Below, piece by piece: positions 3,001 through 63,657 of a stretch of 64,000 bases of DNA. Origin of the DNA: a virus; the IMG/VR virus record IMGVR_UViG_3300008111_000006, positions 1 to 64,000 of that record. The stretch is one strand, 5' to 3'. The position numbers and the translations under genes are program-made. The notes below the pieces were generated by a model. That model saw only the letters and a list, made by a program, of their open reading frames with translations. It searched no databases and was not told the origin of the DNA. The number at the start of each line of letters is the position of its first letter. Position 1 is the stretch's first letter.

Positions 3001-3402
3001 AAAGAAAGTAAGAATAGTATTGTTGGGGAAATATCTGTTGGTAACACTAAAGTAAATGAAAAACCTGATAGTGAAACATCTGAAGTAGTAATAAATGTTT
3101 TATCTGTGGATAAGTTTGAAGGTAAAATTATGTTACCTGAAACACTGAAAAATTTAGAGACTGCCGTTGCAGAAAAACAAAAGGAATTAGATGATTTAAT
3201 TGCGCTTGCTAAAATTGATCCTACTGTAAAAAATTCTGAAATAAGGAAAGCAGAAAATGACTTAAAAGATCAACAAAAAAATTTAGAAAAATATAAATCA
3301 TCTGCTTCTGACAAAGTTACTGTAGTTGCTTATTTAGATAAAAATAAAAAAACAACTACTGTGAGTAAAACATTTACAATCACTCAAAATGGGTTAAATT
3401 AA
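1..3402 (+). CDS. Baseplate/tail structural protein with OmpA-like insert (5' end outside window)
   Basis: The reading frame is open from base 1 without a stop, so the gene begins before the window; the first internal ATG at 571 is not the real start. At least 1133 residues are visible. Around nt 1390-1545 it reads FPPYELTF, then EFIGRSEPVYTYNN, SGQLGFKIIVDHP, a pattern I associate with large myovirus tail proteins. Near nt 2460-2650 FGRPPICILRIGDFFHTK and SLSIDYIGGHSLVGP look like the beta-rich core of tail-tube cap/LysM-associated proteins. Between them (nt about 1818-2140) lies a stretch resembling an OmpA C-terminal domain: LNGWVG, an N..LSKEFADKV helix, and a closing DYRVHVKME strand. 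The C-terminus is a Lys/Glu-rich coiled coil. It lies 5 bases before a gp53-like gene, which supports a baseplate role. The exact T4 counterpart (perhaps gp48/gp54) is inference. Confidence 0.7.
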   Translation, partial: VNKRLFPLGNFYRVTQNVNLNRYIPQDEIYEVYELTYPINLGYPLPEGFGEKVRDDYPISYNQEQFFLVNKGDQKGVKFPFNVIDTYKSLNFQKESSLGLIGGQQLEKTIIDKIAQVSEEVGNSNKKTGYITEPIDNIVDNFVNKLRGNDQFFNTLPNNAVGWNEYNSSAKSGSELLKSDLDIQEGVEPTMTTEVRMNTLLSRTSTTQVSFAFNLLNRNDYRPLYEDRRLEGTSDAGLNERYYIGNEKNTNRGNRITKKFNSDDFNGGPDTSGNAKRTTIEGVGEPFGEPNKFFWATGGEQNFNEKTLLYKTQQLVDNNQNDVFINQTKKYFKDKEQGRIISRGNAIKTLDLIDIDGNGNFCRVWTVNDRYSYANAIRNTGLFFSPDKDLQGFSVTNGKASQSVLMDNGIPKYHPVLSDSSTTRKKFMLSIENLAWADNLADLPLSEIGPGDILNGNKGRIMWFPPYELTFDENTSANWNKNEFIGRSEPVYTYNNSSRSGQLGFKIIVDHPRVINCYRGNSTNLTERFFAGCATPEEFLRALECSVTQSDLEEIKKKIYEKKPQKTVDVESKDDDGTVLLDQIKDCDSKTENCKAKRIPNEDNLNSIVSKIKTFVEKQSGNTNPKVKITLNGWVGKGATVDKSGEPTSDNGTKLSKEFADKVKTEIESKLNSSGIDTKLLSNISPIVTKGNIAANTENENDYRVHVKMENDTQNSDQTKPKDEDKGDGAGSFDPEDIRLVDNLIIDEGAYFDYIDENYPNYFKYISAKIKYFHPGFHSITPEGFNSRLTFLNQCMKQGPSIYDRKTLKDGTEVGVQPQNLSFGRPPICILRIGDFFHTKIVINSLSITYDGPQWDLNPEGIGVQPMIATVSLSIDYIGGHSLVGPLNRLQNAVSFNYYANTEMYDVRSDSIDSSTGKVVDGVKLGELKKGLVGEKNLEKYIESLKKEGIVDQTKENENANGAKTTENTGVLEIAIKDKNSVVIKTKDGKKPGDIEIDGKKESKNSIVGEISVGNTKVNEKPDSETSEVVINVLSVDKFEGKIMLPETLKNLETAVAEKQKELDDLIALAKIDPTVKNSEIRKAENDLKDQQKNLEKYKSSASDKVTVVAYLDKNKKTTTVSKTFTITQNGLN

Positions 3403-10623: not shown

Positions 10624-11376
10624 ATGAACAATAAAAAAAAATTTATTTTAGAGGATTTAAAAAGATATAAACAACTTTTGGAATACACTTTTTATGTTCC
10701 AGAAGAAAAAGAAGATGATTTAGATGGTGATTTACTATTAGATGATTCTTTTTTAACGGAACAAGATCCTGCAGGTGACGATCCTTTTATGGATGTTGCC
10801 GATCCTGAAGCTGGTGATACAGAAAAAGAAGAACCTGCTGGACAAGCACCTGCTGGAGATACAGAAAAAGAAGAACCTGAGGGACAAGCACCTGCTGGTG
10901 ATGAACCTGTTGAAGATGAAGAACCAGAAATAGAAGATGAATTTGCCGATACTGAAGGTGTAGGGGACACTTCCGAAGATGAGGATACTGTTGAAGTTGA
11001 TGTAACTGATTTGGTTGATAATACTGAAGAAACTAAAAAATCGGTTTCAGATGTTAGCGATAAAATGGAAGAATTACTTTCTAAATTATCAGAATTGGAA
11101 AATCAAATATCTGGTATGGATGAAGTCATTAGTAAAATTGATTCGTTAGAAAAAGAAATAGAAAAAAGAAACCCAACACCTGTTGAAAAATTAGAAATGA
11201 GATCGATGCAAGATTTTAACTTCCCATATAGTGTTAAGTTAAAAGATTTTTGGTCAGATAAAGAAGGTTATGAAGCAACTAATGATTCAGAAGAAGAATT
11301 TATTTTAAGACAAAGTGATGTTGAGAATTTTGACAGAAATGAAATAAAAGCCTCTTTTGATTACCCTAAAAAATAA
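10624..11376 (+). CDS. Acidic repeat/coiled-coil protein with possible capsid-targeting N-terminus
   Basis: 250 residues. The N-terminus (MNNKKKFILEDLKRYKQLLE) is a short basic amphipathic helix ending in LLE, like several other proteins here. Residues about 25-125 are extremely acidic and contain two 14-residue repeats (GDTEKEEPAGQAPA type). Residues about 125-185 form a coiled coil (EELLSKLSELENQISGMD), and a folded C-terminal patch follows (NFPYSVKLKDFWSDKEG). The layout of basic helix, acidic linker and coiled coil is reminiscent of internal head or scaffold-core proteins of T4-like phages, but that is inference. A strong terminator follows 20 bases after the stop. Confidence 0.65.
   Translation: MNNKKKFILEDLKRYKQLLEYTFYVPEEKEDDLDGDLLLDDSFLTEQDPAGDDPFMDVADPEAGDTEKEEPAGQAPAGDTEKEEPEGQAPAGDEPVEDEEPEIEDEFADTEGVGDTSEDEDTVEVDVTDLVDNTEETKKSVSDVSDKMEELLSKLSELENQISGMDEVISKIDSLEKEIEKRNPTPVEKLEMRSMQDFNFPYSVKLKDFWSDKEGYEATNDSEEEFILRQSDVENFDRNEIKASFDYPKK
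10811..10894 (+). repeat. Two tandem 42-base units
   Basis: Two in-frame 42-base units (10811-10852 and 10853-10894), nearly identical, begin CTGGTGAT/CTGGAGAT and encode 14 residues each within the acidic region of the 10624 protein. A third partial copy begins at 10895. They explain the Pro/Ala/Glu-rich low complexity there. Confidence 0.8.
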
Positions 11377-18469: not shown

Positions 18470-18697
18470 ATGAATGTAGGGGCATCAAAAGATTGGGTAC
18501 AACAACTATACATAAGGGAATTCGGTCCTAAACTACAACCAAATGAGTTCTATTATGATAATGATGGTAGAATAGTTATGAATGAACAATATCATAAACG
18601 AAGAGGATCTTGTTGTGGTAATGGATGTTTACATTGTCCTTATGAACCCAAACATATAAAAGGTAACACAGAAATAAGAAAATCACTACAATCGTAG
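18470..18697 (+). CDS. Small Cys-motif protein, DUF5522-like
   Basis: 75 residues. The central RGSCCGNGCLHCPY motif matches the signature I recall for the DUF5522 family (GxCCGxGCxHCPY), found in bacteria and eukaryotes; its function is unknown and metal or Fe-S binding is plausible. The gene lies between two terminators and so is probably a single-gene unit, and its last codons are inside the downstream terminator stem. A family shared with cellular organisms suggests acquisition from a host. No signal peptide or membrane segment. Confidence 0.7.
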   Translation: MNVGASKDWVQQLYIREFGPKLQPNEFYYDNDGRIVMNEQYHKRRGSCCGNGCLHCPYEPKHIKGNTEIRKSLQS

Positions 18698-18710
18698 TGA
18701 TTTTTTTTAT
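18681..18710 (+). terminator. Terminator, probably bidirectional
   Basis: AATCACTAC (18681-18689) pairs with GTAGTGATT (18694-18702) around AATC, followed by T residues to 18708. The stop codon of the plus-strand gene (18695-18697) is in the 3' arm. On the minus strand the same stem is followed by TTTTCTTATTT, so it can also end the convergent protease gene. Confidence 0.85.
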
Positions 18711-19270
18711 GTATTAAATTTTTTAGAATAAAGATATTTTATCATTTCAATATCCTTTTCAGTAAAATTATTATTGTGATCTAAAATAGAATTATTTTCT
18801 TTTTCATAATGAGAAAAACCTAACATATGAAACATTTCGTGTCTAATTGTATTAGAAAATGATTTAAATTCTTTATTTTCTACAATATCTATATGTATGT
18901 AAACACTTTTAATTTTATGGTTTATAGGTTCTGTAAAAGTTATACCTATATTAACTAAATCGTATTTTGACCATTTAAACATATTGGCAAACTCTGTATC
19001 GGATAAGAAATATATAACCACATTAGCAGAATCTTTATTTTTAACCATACTTATATTAATAGGTTTAATAAGTGGTTTAAAAATTTTAATAGTTTCAACA
19101 ACATCCAATGAGTCTTTTTTGGTGTACTTACCGTATAAACATATTTTAATATCTTTATACCATCTATCCCCACCTTCAGTTGCTAATAAAAGTTCTTCCT
19201 TAGTGGAAAAATTTTGAGAAAAAAACCAAATAGGGTTTAAAATTAATAGTGCAATTATTAAATTTTTCAT
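18707..19270 (-). CDS. Secreted metzincin-like zinc metalloprotease
   Basis: 187 residues from the ATG at 19270 (MKNLIIALLILNPIWFFSQ), a clear signal peptide ending in FSQ. The frame's earlier ATG at 19297 would place charged residues ahead of it and would start inside the promoter. HEMFHMLGFSH (H144, E145, H148, H154) is the full HExxHxxGxxH zinc motif of metzincins. The downstream segment NSILDH followed by DIEMIKYLY resembles the matrixin Met-turn and last helix, with Leu in place of Met. It lies alone on the minus strand with a host-type promoter and a terminator, so it looks like independently expressed cargo acting in the periplasm or outside the cell. The substrate is unknown. Confidence 0.75.
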   Translation of the reverse strand: MKNLIIALLILNPIWFFSQNFSTKEELLLATEGGDRWYKDIKICLYGKYTKKDSLDVVETIKIFKPLIKPINISMVKNKDSANVVIYFLSDTEFANMFKWSKYDLVNIGITFTEPINHKIKSVYIHIDIVENKEFKSFSNTIRHEMFHMLGFSHYEKENNSILDHNNNFTEKDIEMIKYLYSKKFNT

Positions 19271-19294
19271 AGTTGTTTTGTATTTATAATAAAA

Positions 19295-19324
19295 CAAATA
19301 TATAATTTTTTCTTAAATAAACAA
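19295..19324 (-). promoter_or_regulatory. Host-type promoter of the secreted protease gene
   Basis: On the minus strand TTG (19324-19322) and TATATTTG (19302-19295) are separated by exactly 19 bases, the Bacteroidota consensus arrangement. The -7 element ends 24 bases before the ATG at 19270. A TATAAATA also lies on the minus strand (19288-19281) in the leader. Confidence 0.7.
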
Positions 19325-19339
19325 AAATTATTAAAAAAT

Positions 19340-21265
19340 ATGAAGAATCTTTTTGAGGAGTTACAAAGAATAAAGTCTTTAATGGTTTACGAACAAGGTG
19401 TAAAGATTAATGAAGTTAGTACTGCATCCGTTGAAGGTGGTGATACTGATGAAGGTGATGGTGGTAGTGAAAATCAAAATAAACCTGCGGATAGTGAAAA
19501 CGAAAAAAATAATGTAGAACAAGAATCAAAAACTGAAGGTGGTAAAGAACCAAGTAAAAAGAATTGTGTGTCTATTACAAATACTGAGGTATATAAAACT
19601 GAAAGTGATGTAAATAAAGAAGTACCTGAAAAGTTCTTTCAGAAGTTCAAACAAAAAGTTGAAGAACAGTTTGGTTTGTTTGCAGATGGTGAATTTACTA
19701 TTGAGGACATCAACGTATTTGGGGGTGCTAGTAATTATTGGAAGGGTAGTAATAGTAATAAATTTCCTGCGGTAGAACCTAAGTATTGTAATGAATATGA
19801 TGTTAACGTTGGTATAACTTCATTAAAAACTTGGTCGTCTGGTTGTAAAGGTTTTGGTAAAACCGAAAAAAAAGTTTATGATAAAAATTCTTCAGGTAAA
19901 AAAAGTAATGAAGATTTAGCAAAAAGAAGGGCACAAAAAGTTTTAGATGAATTAACTAAAAAAATTGTGACTTTTGCTCAACAAAATAATATTAAAGTTC
20001 CAGCCGATTTCAAAAAAGAAATAAAAAATATTACTTCTGGTTCCATTTATACTGAAGATAAAACAGATACTCATTCAGTAGTAGCAGCAGCAATTAAAAG
20101 TGGTGAATTAAATGCGGGTCAATTAGTAATGATAGACGCAGTTTTATGTTTTACACCATACAACCCATGTCCTAATTGTATGATTAGAGATCCAAAAACT
20201 AAACAATGTAAATGTAAAGAAGGGTTAACAGAAAAAGATGGTAAATGTTTTTGCCCTAATGGAAAAGAGGTGGATGAAAATTGTGAATGTAACAATTGTC
20301 CAGATCCTTGTATGACATTTAATAAAGAAACAAAAAAATGTGATTGCCCTGAAGGTATGACATTTAATGAATCTACAAAACAATGTGAATGTCCTAAAGG
20401 TTTCAAAAAGACAGATGATTGTGAATGTTTGAAAGAAAAAGAAAGAGAATGTCCTGATAAATGTCAAAAACGTGATGAAAATGGTGATTGTAAATGTCCT
20501 AATGGTATGACATTTAATGAAGAGACACAAAAATGTGATTGTCCTGAAGGTAAAATTAAACCTACTGTAGATGCGTGTAATTGTGTAACACCAAAACCAC
20601 CATTAAAATGTGGGTATAATGAGAAAAAAGAAGGGGGTAGAGGTACTAAACAAAATAACTTTGTTGCAGCAACAGTTAAAAGTGGATTCCCTGTTGGGGA
20701 AGGGGATACGGTAACTATTTCATTTGATTCATTGGTTGTTCCTGACGCATTTTATGTTAAGTATGGTGATCAAGAGTTCTTTAGCGGATTTATGGGAGAT
20801 GTCTATAATGATGAATATAGACAAGTTGCTTTAAGTGTTAAAGAAAAGAAAAAAATGTTACCATTACAGTCTAAATATGTTAAAGATATTGTTAAAGATG
20901 AATTAAATGCTGGTGATAACGATTATAGTGGGATGGATAATGTTGTAAGGAATTTTGTTGGTGAGTTAGTAATGTATAAACGACAAGATGGTTTATTAGA
21001 GAGTATAAATGAAGCAATTAAATCTGAAGGGGGAAAATTGACAGTTAAAGATATCTTTAAAAATGGTGATGCTGAGGCAGAAAAAATAACTGATGATATT
21101 ATTAATAGTGGTAGTATAAAAGATAACATTGTTAGATATAAACAAATAATGAAATCTGGTACATCATTTAAAATTACCAAAGAAGAAGAGAATTTCCAAC
21201 TGATAATAATGGTATTTTCACCATTAGATAGAACAATATTTACGATGGAAGTTAAATGTGAATAA
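19340..21265 (+). CDS. OmpA-like protein with Cys-rich EGF-like repeats
   Basis: 641 residues. The N-terminus MKNLFEELQRIKSLMVYEQG is a short amphipathic helix of the type shared by several proteins here (possible capsid-targeting tag). A Gly/Glu-rich linker follows. Residues about 80-270 resemble an OmpA-type domain: a variable strand region, then SNEDLAKRRAQKVLDEL, the typical N..LAxRRA helix. Residues about 275-420 hold Cys-rich repeats (TFNEETQKCDCPEG type; CxCP recurring about every 20 residues), similar to EGF or trypsin-inhibitor-like repeats. The C-terminal ~220 residues are mixed alpha/beta and unrecognised. No signal peptide. It lies just before the gp25/gp6 block, so a virion or internal head protein is plausible. 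Confidence 0.65.
   Translation: MKNLFEELQRIKSLMVYEQGVKINEVSTASVEGGDTDEGDGGSENQNKPADSENEKNNVEQESKTEGGKEPSKKNCVSITNTEVYKTESDVNKEVPEKFFQKFKQKVEEQFGLFADGEFTIEDINVFGGASNYWKGSNSNKFPAVEPKYCNEYDVNVGITSLKTWSSGCKGFGKTEKKVYDKNSSGKKSNEDLAKRRAQKVLDELTKKIVTFAQQNNIKVPADFKKEIKNITSGSIYTEDKTDTHSVVAAAIKSGELNAGQLVMIDAVLCFTPYNPCPNCMIRDPKTKQCKCKEGLTEKDGKCFCPNGKEVDENCECNNCPDPCMTFNKETKKCDCPEGMTFNESTKQCECPKGFKKTDDCECLKEKERECPDKCQKRDENGDCKCPNGMTFNEETQKCDCPEGKIKPTVDACNCVTPKPPLKCGYNEKKEGGRGTKQNNFVAATVKSGFPVGEGDTVTISFDSLVVPDAFYVKYGDQEFFSGFMGDVYNDEYRQVALSVKEKKKMLPLQSKYVKDIVKDELNAGDNDYSGMDNVVRNFVGELVMYKRQDGLLESINEAIKSEGGKLTVKDIFKNGDAEAEKITDDIINSGSIKDNIVRYKQIMKSGTSFKITKEEENFQLIIMVFSPLDRTIFTMEVKCE
20283..20588 (+). repeat. 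Cys-rich degenerate protein repeats (DNA level)
   Basis: Four related units within the 19340 gene, with ATGACATTTAATGAA repeated nearly exactly near 20312, 20357 and 20506, each followed by a C-x-C-P-x-G codon block. They encode EGF-like Cys repeats. Confidence 0.7.
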
Positions 21266-21325: not shown

Positions 21326-21709
21326 ATGGCAAAGACTAGGTATATAAATATTGATTTCCCTTTTAGGGATGGTGATAATGGGTTTTATTTTCAGATGAAT
21401 AAAACAGATAAAGACGCTATTAGGGCGGATTTATTACATCTACTTTTAACTAATAAAGGTGAAAGGTTATATCTCCCTGATTTTGGTAGTGATTTAAAAA
21501 AATACATTTTTGAACCAAATGATTCAATCACACATGAACAAATTAGAGATAATTTAAATGATACAATTAAATTATATATACCTAATTTAATCATAAATGA
21601 CATATCATTTAGAAATGATGATATCGAAGAATTAATAATTGTGGAATTAACCTATACTGTTACAGAAGGAACTTTCACTAGTACAGATACAATAACTTTA
21701 ACATTCTAA
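21326..21709 (+). CDS. gp25-like baseplate wedge protein
   Basis: 127 residues, the normal size for the gp25 (GPW/gp25) family, the small wedge protein that helps start sheath assembly. Diagnostic features are the N-terminal INIDFPFR and the NKGERLYLPDFGSDLKKYIFEP segment, then an IRDNLNDTIKLYIP helix and a C-terminal pair of strands. It lies 2 bases before the gp6-like gene, the conserved order in contractile tails. Two AATATTTAT elements lie in the 60-base gap upstream. Confidence 0.9.
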   Translation: MAKTRYINIDFPFRDGDNGFYFQMNKTDKDAIRADLLHLLLTNKGERLYLPDFGSDLKKYIFEPNDSITHEQIRDNLNDTIKLYIPNLIINDISFRNDDIEELIIVELTYTVTEGTFTSTDTITLTF

Positions 21710-46235: not shown

Positions 46236-47531
46236 ATGGGATTTATAAATAGTGCAACAACAGTATCAATTAGAGCTAGATTAACTAATCTTGGAAGAGA
46301 AAGATTATTGACTGGTAATAATACAATATTCTCTCACTTTATTTTAGGTGATTCAGATGCAAATTACAATACAGAAACTCCATTACCTACTGGTAGAATA
46401 CCTGTTGATAGTGGGGATTTAGGTAATGATAACGGAACAAACGATAATATTTCCGCAAATGTAGACATTAATAGTAAATTATTTGTCACTGTTGCACCTA
46501 TTATTAAGAAAACTGTTGAACCTAATTCATCTTCGGTAAGTTTGATTGTTAGTGAAATAGGTGAGACTACATTAACTGGTTCTAATTTAACGTATTTACA
46601 AATGGATAAAACTAATACGACTAATATAAACACAAACTATTTTAAATCTTTATCCTTACCAATAAAATTAGATACGGTTAACATTTTTACAGGAACTACA
46701 TCACAAAATGGTGGTTGGTCAGATACACCTTTTAGTGGATTAGGTGTGACAAAAGTGTTGATGGGTATTATTGATAATAGTAAATATGGTGAGATAATAG
46801 ATGGTAAAAGTGTTAAAATTAATTTACCTGTTTATACTGGATTTACTAGTGGTGGGGTAGGTACAGGAATAACTACTTATAATATTTATAGTACATTTCC
46901 TAGAACAACTATTTCTAAGACAGAATTAGATAATCATTATATTGATGAGAGTAGTTATCCACAGTCTTTATTTGGTAGAAAAATTAATGTATCTTATTTA
47001 GTTTCCGATCAAATAAAAAAACCAAATAACGATTCAACAAAAAGTTGGTCGACAGGGTATGATACATTTAAACCATTTAGTTTAAATTCTAAGGAATTAA
47101 TTAATGTTCAAACAGTATCATCTACAGGTATTAACGCTGATGAAATAGTGGGTGTTATTTATTTAGATAAAGGTATTTTTGCGATAACTAATCAAACAAT
47201 AGTTAATAATATTGCAACTAATTTTAGTGGTGATACAGACACAAATACTATAAATACTGGTTTAAATCTTTACTATTATAGTGCGAGTACTTATAATACG
47301 GTAATCGATAGTGTACAAAAAGATTTAGTTCAGAATATTGTTTGTATCGCAGCAAGAGGTGAGTTTTACAATTCACAAAATGAAACATTAACAGTTTATG
47401 ATGATGTTAGAATTAGTGAAGTGGCAATAACAGATACCGCAGGAAATATTTTAGCGATAGGTAAAACAGATAGACATATTGTGAAAAAGAAAAATGATTT
47501 TGTAGTATTCGATGTACAAATTATAATATAA
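46236..47531 (+). CDS. Tail fibre/collar-type protein B
   Basis: 431 residues, paralogue of the upstream gene. N-terminus: SIRARLTNLGRERLLTGNNT then HFILGDSDANYN. C-terminus: VRISEVAITDTAGNILAIGK. The middle 300 residues are unrelated to those of the upstream protein and rich in Thr/Ser/Gly, as in fibre shafts. The gene lies 10 bases after its paralogue and closes the structural operon; the resolvase gene begins 20 bases further on. Different middles on the same ends suggest swappable adaptor-type fibres. Confidence 0.7.
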   Translation: MGFINSATTVSIRARLTNLGRERLLTGNNTIFSHFILGDSDANYNTETPLPTGRIPVDSGDLGNDNGTNDNISANVDINSKLFVTVAPIIKKTVEPNSSSVSLIVSEIGETTLTGSNLTYLQMDKTNTTNINTNYFKSLSLPIKLDTVNIFTGTTSQNGGWSDTPFSGLGVTKVLMGIIDNSKYGEIIDGKSVKINLPVYTGFTSGGVGTGITTYNIYSTFPRTTISKTELDNHYIDESSYPQSLFGRKINVSYLVSDQIKKPNNDSTKSWSTGYDTFKPFSLNSKELINVQTVSSTGINADEIVGVIYLDKGIFAITNQTIVNNIATNFSGDTDTNTINTGLNLYYYSASTYNTVIDSVQKDLVQNIVCIAARGEFYNSQNETLTVYDDVRISEVAITDTAGNILAIGKTDRHIVKKKNDFVVFDVQIII

Positions 47532-63243: not shown

Positions 63244-63657
63244 TTAATAATATTCAACTAGAACTAACGTTGTAACACCATCTTTATAGAAGTACTCTAA
63301 GTCAAATAGACTATGAGGTAGTTTGTTTTTACTAATATTTTTTTGCATACATTCTATTTGCTTGTCTCTATCATTTACAAAGTAAACTTTTCGTGAATAG
63401 TAATCCCATCCGTTCTTATGACAAACATAAATTAAGTCAGTAGGGTACATCCATTGGATACTATCCGTATTTACGCCTATAGAACTGAATAATTCATTTA
63501 CCAGAGAGTCACAAGTGTCATCCAAATGATCGATATACCATTCATAAACTCCTTCATTGGATTTTGCCCTAAGAGGAACGTCAAAGTCATATTGTCTTTG
63601 AGAAAATACACTTAAAGTTGTAAGTGTTAATAGTGAAGTTAAAATTAAAGTTTTCAT
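63244..63657 (-). CDS. Secreted hypothetical protein
   Basis: 137 residues from ATG 63657 (MKTLILTSLLTLTTLSVFSQ), a signal peptide with a likely cut after FSQ, as in the protease at 18707. An earlier in-frame ATG at 63708 is inside the promoter region and would put a second hydrophobic, charged stretch ahead, so it is rejected. The mature part has a pattern (YEWYIDHLDDTCDSL, YVCHKNGWDYYSRKVYF) with three Cys and no known family. It is a lone minus-strand gene with its own host-type promoter, inserted between two paralogous plus-strand genes. Confidence 0.7.
   Translation of the reverse strand: MKTLILTSLLTLTTLSVFSQRQYDFDVPLRAKSNEGVYEWYIDHLDDTCDSLVNELFSSIGVNTDSIQWMYPTDLIYVCHKNGWDYYSRKVYFVNDRDKQIECMQKNISKNKLPHSLFDLEYFYKDGVTTLVLVEYY

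Follow-up and report, generated by a model that had tools for sequence, protein, structure and literature searches.

The window, by which we mean the whole 64,000-nucleotide stretch analyzed here (positions 1 to 64,000 of IMG/VR record IMGVR_UViG_3300008111_000006), contains a variable site occupied by two divergent genes: one for a predicted exported zinc peptidase, here called metz, and its neighbor on the opposite strand, here called P. The features of the site are as follows.

18470 to 18697, plus strand: DUF5522 gene (PF17653), bordering the variable site on the left
18676 to 18707, both strands: bidirectional intrinsic terminator common to metz and the DUF5522 gene (RNA folding)
18707 to 19270, minus strand: metz, putative exported matrix metalloproteinase (MMP)-like zinc peptidase gene, 187 aa (open reading frame call and homologues)
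18782 to 18790, minus strand: Met-turn position S-I-L, residues 161 to 163, with Leu in the window protein
18809 to 18841, minus strand: zinc site HEMFHMLGFSH (HExxHxxGxxH), residues 144 to 154, invariant in the family
19217 to 19270, minus strand: signal peptide, residues 1 to 18, with predicted signal peptidase I (SPI) cleavage before Gln19 (Bacteroidetes Q-rule)
19295 to 19324, minus strand: sigma-A-type Bacteroidota promoter TTG-N19-TATATTTG (pattern plus -7 box TAnnTTTG)
19340 to 21265, plus strand: P, 641 aa, divergent from metz (co-occurrence, alignment, model, and Foldseek)
21326 to 21709, plus strand: gp25-like gene for a baseplate wedge protein (PF04965), bordering the variable site on the right

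The record to which the window belongs is 96,404 bases long and carries T4-like genes for a UvsX-like protein, a DnaB-like helicase, ribonucleotide reductase (RNR), gp25, and a gp6-like wedge protein; some gene names in it rest on inspection of the sequence only. Full-length relatives of the gp6-like protein in deposited phages, Flavobacterium phage immuto included, are only 26 to 28% identical to it, and the lineage is therefore an uncultured one. The record is that of an uncultured Bacteroidota virus of a T4-like phage lineage.

A preliminary description of positions 18707 to 19324 had reported a lone secreted metzincin with the minus-strand motif HEMFHMLGFSH, Leu at the Met-turn, a signal peptide, a TTG-N19-TATATTTG promoter of its own, and a shared terminator. 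These sequence elements are all present at the positions listed above (the promoter exactly so), and the span rightly takes in the promoter along with the gene. The start of metz is the ATG at 19270; an alternative TTG at 19297 is possible but falls within the 5' leader. The homology search that had been called for found homologues in IMG/VR at 21 loci with the single protein and at about 46 with a profile, at identities as low as about 41 to 42%. With the zinc motif kept without exception across those roughly 46 loci, the observation is confirmed as real and well past chance. Pairwise dN/dS values of 0.14 to 0.34 in 11 of 12 pairs (0.53 in the remaining, very close pair) indicate purifying selection. 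The protein nevertheless diverges far faster than its neighbors, with 42 to 78% identity where RNR identity is 77 to 96%. Neither the single protein nor the profile found homologues among 84,980 bacterial and archaeal genomes, 50,697 phage records held no significant ones, and PHROGs and NCBIfam gave no significant family. A Dph2 match of the relative L019 and matches to SprT/YbeY were all below cut-off, being of HExxH type or due to chance.

Among the 27 aligned homologues, H-E-M-F-H-x-L-G-F-x-H is kept in every one, with M, I, or L after HEMFH. The three His and the Glu of the zinc site are thus invariant, and loss of this site, which the preliminary description had named as evidence against its reading, was never seen in the direct homologues. 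The protein has the HExxHxxGxxH/D motif of metzincins but carries Leu163 where the Met-turn methionine should follow the third His, and for that reason we do not class it as a metzincin in the strict sense. Leu occupies this position in most of the family, Met in L017 and L018, and Ile in L019, L045, L051, and L055, a variation indicating that the Met requirement is probably relaxed within the family.

An AlphaFold2 model of the protein (mean pLDDT 67.5, four of the five models being at about 40 and residues 159 to 169 uncertain) was compared with known structures by Foldseek. For a model of this moderate quality, the best match was the MMP domain of karilysin from Tannerella (E = 1.6e-5, probability 1.0), and further matches with probabilities of 1.0 to 0.99 included MMP-13, MMP-1, other human MMPs, snapalysin, and myroilysin. 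The resemblance to karilysin and the matrixins (PF00413, M10) covers the predicted fold, HExxHxxGxxH, and a small secreted catalytic domain, and karilysin is likewise of Bacteroidota origin. The window protein differs from them in being phage encoded, in its Leu for the Met-turn Met, in an identity of only 14 to 20%, and in an M10 score of 14 bits, below the cut-off of 24. Its nearest sequence family is DUF2927 (PF11150), to which the metz family matches over the whole domain, although the window protein itself scores 17 bits, below the cut-off of 26.2; of two further members, L030 falls below it (23.2 bits) and L051 above (31.3 bits). A paralogue in L052 and L095 also belongs here: it scores 51.9 bits against DUF2927, above cut-off (E = 1e-13), and the window family's profile matches it at 6e-17, but its zinc site is lost, reading EEITQCFGF (EExTQxxGF). 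A literature search on DUF2927 found no paper naming the family. On its predicted fold and profile scores, the window protein is MMP-like and DUF2927 related.

The N terminus of the protein has the form of a classic signal peptide of Bacteroidota type, with n- and h-regions and the ending FSQ. Under the Bacteroidetes Q-rule (PMC5837995), Gln immediately follows the SPI cleavage site, and Q19 is at least 90% conserved among the 27 homologues, which points to Sec/SPI export.

In Flavobacterium, the -7 box recognized by sigma-A reads TAnnTTTG (PMC9723704). TTG-N19/20-TATATTTG is kept upstream of all 28 distinct metz copies, against an expectation of 0.65% per 75 nt, and the -7 box begins at a near-constant distance of 29 to 32 nt before the ATG. 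The promoter is not unique to metz, as TTG-N17-23-TAnnTTTG occurs at 36 sites in this phage genome, about 14 of them intergenic; up to position 47,500, in the replication and structural block, the metz promoter is the only intergenic one. The shared terminator is a strong bidirectional hairpin (14 bp/11 bp) with T-tracts on both strands and RNA-fold z-scores of -5.8/-5.4, and hairpins lie 3' of metz in nearly all homologues. Within the promoter spacer lies a short inverted repeat, CAGTT...AACTG, in L017, L018, L019, L045, L051, and L055 and a different pairing, ATACAT...ATGTAT, in L054. These repeats are possibly operators.

The product of P consists, in order, of a conserved N-terminal segment with a short helix tag (LxE...R...LMVYE), a linker modeled as disordered (residues about 20 to 73), an OmpA-like part, variable Cys-rich repeats, and a conserved C-terminal domain. 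In the alignment, the signature of the OmpA-like part, N-x-x-L-x-x-x-R-A, is invariant except for the Leu, which is kept in at least 90%. Foldseek matched the P model to the peptidoglycan-binding domain of OprF/OmpA with a probability of 0.99 but an E value of 0.012, and a Pfam search for OmpA in P was not significant, so that the OmpA assignment is a weak one. P has no signal peptide, diverges about as fast as metz, and has no significant homologues in cultured phages. Its position beside gp25 and gp6 suggests a role in the virion. Short amphipathic N-terminal tags followed by disorder (LxEEExRIKxLM, KRxxIMEAN, LNLHESATK) are found on many phage proteins, for example those at 10624, 19340, 59729, and 62599 in the window, and recall a capsid-targeting sequence. 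The related 254-kb contig L182 encodes a prohead protease of T4 type (PF03420, E = 4e-24). The N-terminal tag fits the T4 cleavage consensus poorly, and we take capsid targeting as a lead only.

Relatives were collected by gp25 rather than by metz, to avoid selection on metz, and the interval from RNR to gp25 was examined in each. Among 66 complete intervals, metz and P are both present in 34 and both absent in 30; P occurs alone in 2 (L110 and L117) and metz alone in none. Many of the empty intervals measure only 106 to 330 bp, so that DUF5522 or RNR abuts gp25 directly. On a tree of RNR and gp25 (41 distinct rows), the pair requires 6 changes, at least 2 of them forced by well-supported branches; since the intervals come from related rows, the 34 joint occurrences are not 34 independent events. 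The two genes form an accessory unit, acquired or lost jointly on more than one occasion. The comparison with sister phages that the preliminary description had proposed thus finds metz in 34 of 66 gp25-anchored relatives and absent from 32, and a conserved core gene, the outcome that it had set against its reading, is ruled out, the site being empty or otherwise filled in 30. Its proposal of a moron stands as regards promoter, terminator, export signal, and patchy distribution at a fixed site; its description of the gene as lone does not, metz never occurring without P in the 66 intervals.

Some further features of the site were noted. Most relatives, whether or not they have the island, encode the small Cys-rich DUF5522 protein beside RNR. 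One relative lacking metz has a rhomboid-family gene at the RNR-gp25 site (PF01694, E = 3e-13; L101:7843-8574, minus strand). In another relative, this site is taken by a gene with a TTTGGCAG promoter for an exported protein of no relation to metz (L103:2134-2604, minus strand), convergent with an LTESDVKRIVKKVLTES-tagged gene. In L157:3747-5849, a stop codon splits P, and metz is intact in the same contig.

We lean, by a little over even chances, toward a reading in which metz encodes a Sec-exported MMP-like protease, driven by a host promoter, that acts on the envelope and is functionally tied to P. Host RNA polymerase would read metz from the sigma-A-type promoter during infection and stop at the bidirectional terminator, and the gene's own promoter and terminator imply expression apart from the structural genes. 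The product would leave by the host Sec/SPI pathway, be cut before Gln19, and hence work in the periplasm or beyond. There it may adopt the fold of a pared-down MMP-like zinc endopeptidase, in which HExxHxxGxxH binds the zinc and the Met-turn accommodates Leu, and cleave an envelope protein. That metz and P come and go together suggests that metz works with P; against this stand the two relatives with P alone and the lack of a signal peptide on P. The most likely benefit would be conditioning of the host envelope, through easier lysis and release or a surface altered against competitors; shaving of a receptor ranks second and processing of P third.

A precedent exists in Listeria, where the phage-derived metzincin Mtz and its partner Tim make cells more sensitive to phage lysis and lysins (PMC8235301). 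The likeness is one of motif and layout: Sec export, HEXXHXXGXXH, an adjacent partner gene, and a phage context, with an envelope phenotype in the Listeria case. In contrast to metz and P, that pair belongs to a Gram-positive host, keeps the Met-turn Met, and is under CI/Cro control, and Tim is an exported lipoprotein whose gene directly follows that of Mtz. Our literature search on exported proteases in virulent-type phages yielded mainly this locus; the preliminary description had called secreted proteases rare in lytic phages. The present family is a defined one whose zinc site is intact, whose fixed genomic site exists naturally in both filled and vacant form, and whose neighbor is obligate, and it makes phage action outside the Bacteroidota cytoplasm directly testable.

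The envelope reading must be weighed against three others. The exported protein could instead serve superinfection exclusion or competition, shaving or inactivating an outer-membrane receptor and so blocking rival or sister phages. The independent host-type promoter, the export signal, and the accessory distribution would all suit this role, and the rapid divergence of metz is what changing surface targets would lead one to expect. However, P diverges about as fast, its coupling to metz beside baseplate genes is left without explanation, and inspection of the 187-aa protein by eye revealed neither an outer-membrane nor a type IX secretion signal; we consider exclusion rather unlikely. It is less probable still that the main substrate is P itself, cut in the linker after the N-terminal tag or in the Cys-rich repeats for virion maturation or release of a fragment. 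The strict one-way dependence of metz on P in the 66 intervals and the long disordered linker would fit, as would the cleavage of its partner by Mtz in Listeria (PMC8235301), but P persists without metz in two relatives and, lacking a signal peptide, would be kept in a separate compartment from the exported protein until lysis. Equally improbable is an exported protein that binds zinc or a peptide without catalysis, a possibility raised by the Leu or Ile at the Met-turn of most members and by the dead site of the DUF2927 paralogue, since the zinc site is invariant in the 27 direct homologues and Met to Leu had only a minor effect in MMP-2, though it compromised Erwinia protease C (PMC1266349).

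Returning to envelope action by an exported protein paired with P, similar arrangements occur elsewhere in this phage and its relatives:

L052:10599-11264, plus strand: DUF2927 paralogue with zinc site lost, directly beside metz
L095:1553-2218, minus strand: DUF2927 paralogue with zinc site lost, beside metz, with its own P-like gene at L095:320-1546
63244 to 63657 of the window, minus strand: exported gene with Q-rule signal and a promoter and leader like those of metz relatives
64333 to 64626 of the genome (L180:1333-1626), outside the window, minus strand: lipoprotein gene with a promoter and leader like those of metz relatives

In L095 and L154, a second pair, made up of a P-like gene (E = 1e-17) and a DUF2927-like gene, stands beside the first. 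The promoters and leaders of the last two genes listed are nearly identical to each other and similar to those of metz relatives (TTTTGG[CT]AG...TATATT[TC]G, with the ATG 20 to 21 nt on), and each gene faces a plus-strand gene whose product starts MGRIxKxKRxxIMEANxRLLNES. An unbiased promoter scan of IMG/VR returned 8 distinct exported-gene entries from 4 unrelated families, all with leaders of 20 to 21 nt, and 3 nonexported genes with leaders of 26 to 33 nt. A rule that every GGCAG promoter is followed by an exported gene proved too broad (9 of 31 exported with the looser pattern); it held, in 8 of 8 entries from the 4 families, only for the box GG[CT]AG[AT][CT]AAAA with a 20- to 21-nt leader.

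The largest of the new families (L186/L301 type) has an exported gene of about 85 aa that is convergent with an N-tagged protein gene in 12 of 15 representatives. An initial comparison of profiles for P and the L186 partner, built on 2 sequences only, was negative; with 13 sequences, hhalign related the C-terminal domains of P and this partner at 93 to 96% probability (mismatched-domain controls, <1%). The whole profiles of the two proteins matched at 84.7%. These sequence comparisons suggest a recurring cassette of a P-superfamily protein and an exported protein. Tentatively, and with rather less than even confidence, we propose a previously undescribed two-part Bacteroidota phage cassette in which an N-tagged P-superfamily protein (OmpA-like part plus shared C-terminal domain) and a swappable Sec-exported protein from the opposite strand (MMP-like protease, DUF2927 pseudoprotease, or ~85-aa protein) would act jointly on the host envelope under a common promoter and leader, TTTTGGCAG-N-TATATTTG with the ATG 20 to 21 nt downstream. 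Spread of shared promoter cassettes by recombination could also produce this pattern.

A P-superfamily gene (MNNLFEISSEERNRILNLHESATKRQYL...) convergent with an exported ~85-aa gene was also seen at about positions 3001 to 4430 of L301, L317, L321, L323, L344, L353, L355, L359, L361, L362, and L365. In several of these pairs, which belong to other Bacteroidota-type phages, a TTTTGGCAG...TATATTTG promoter is present.
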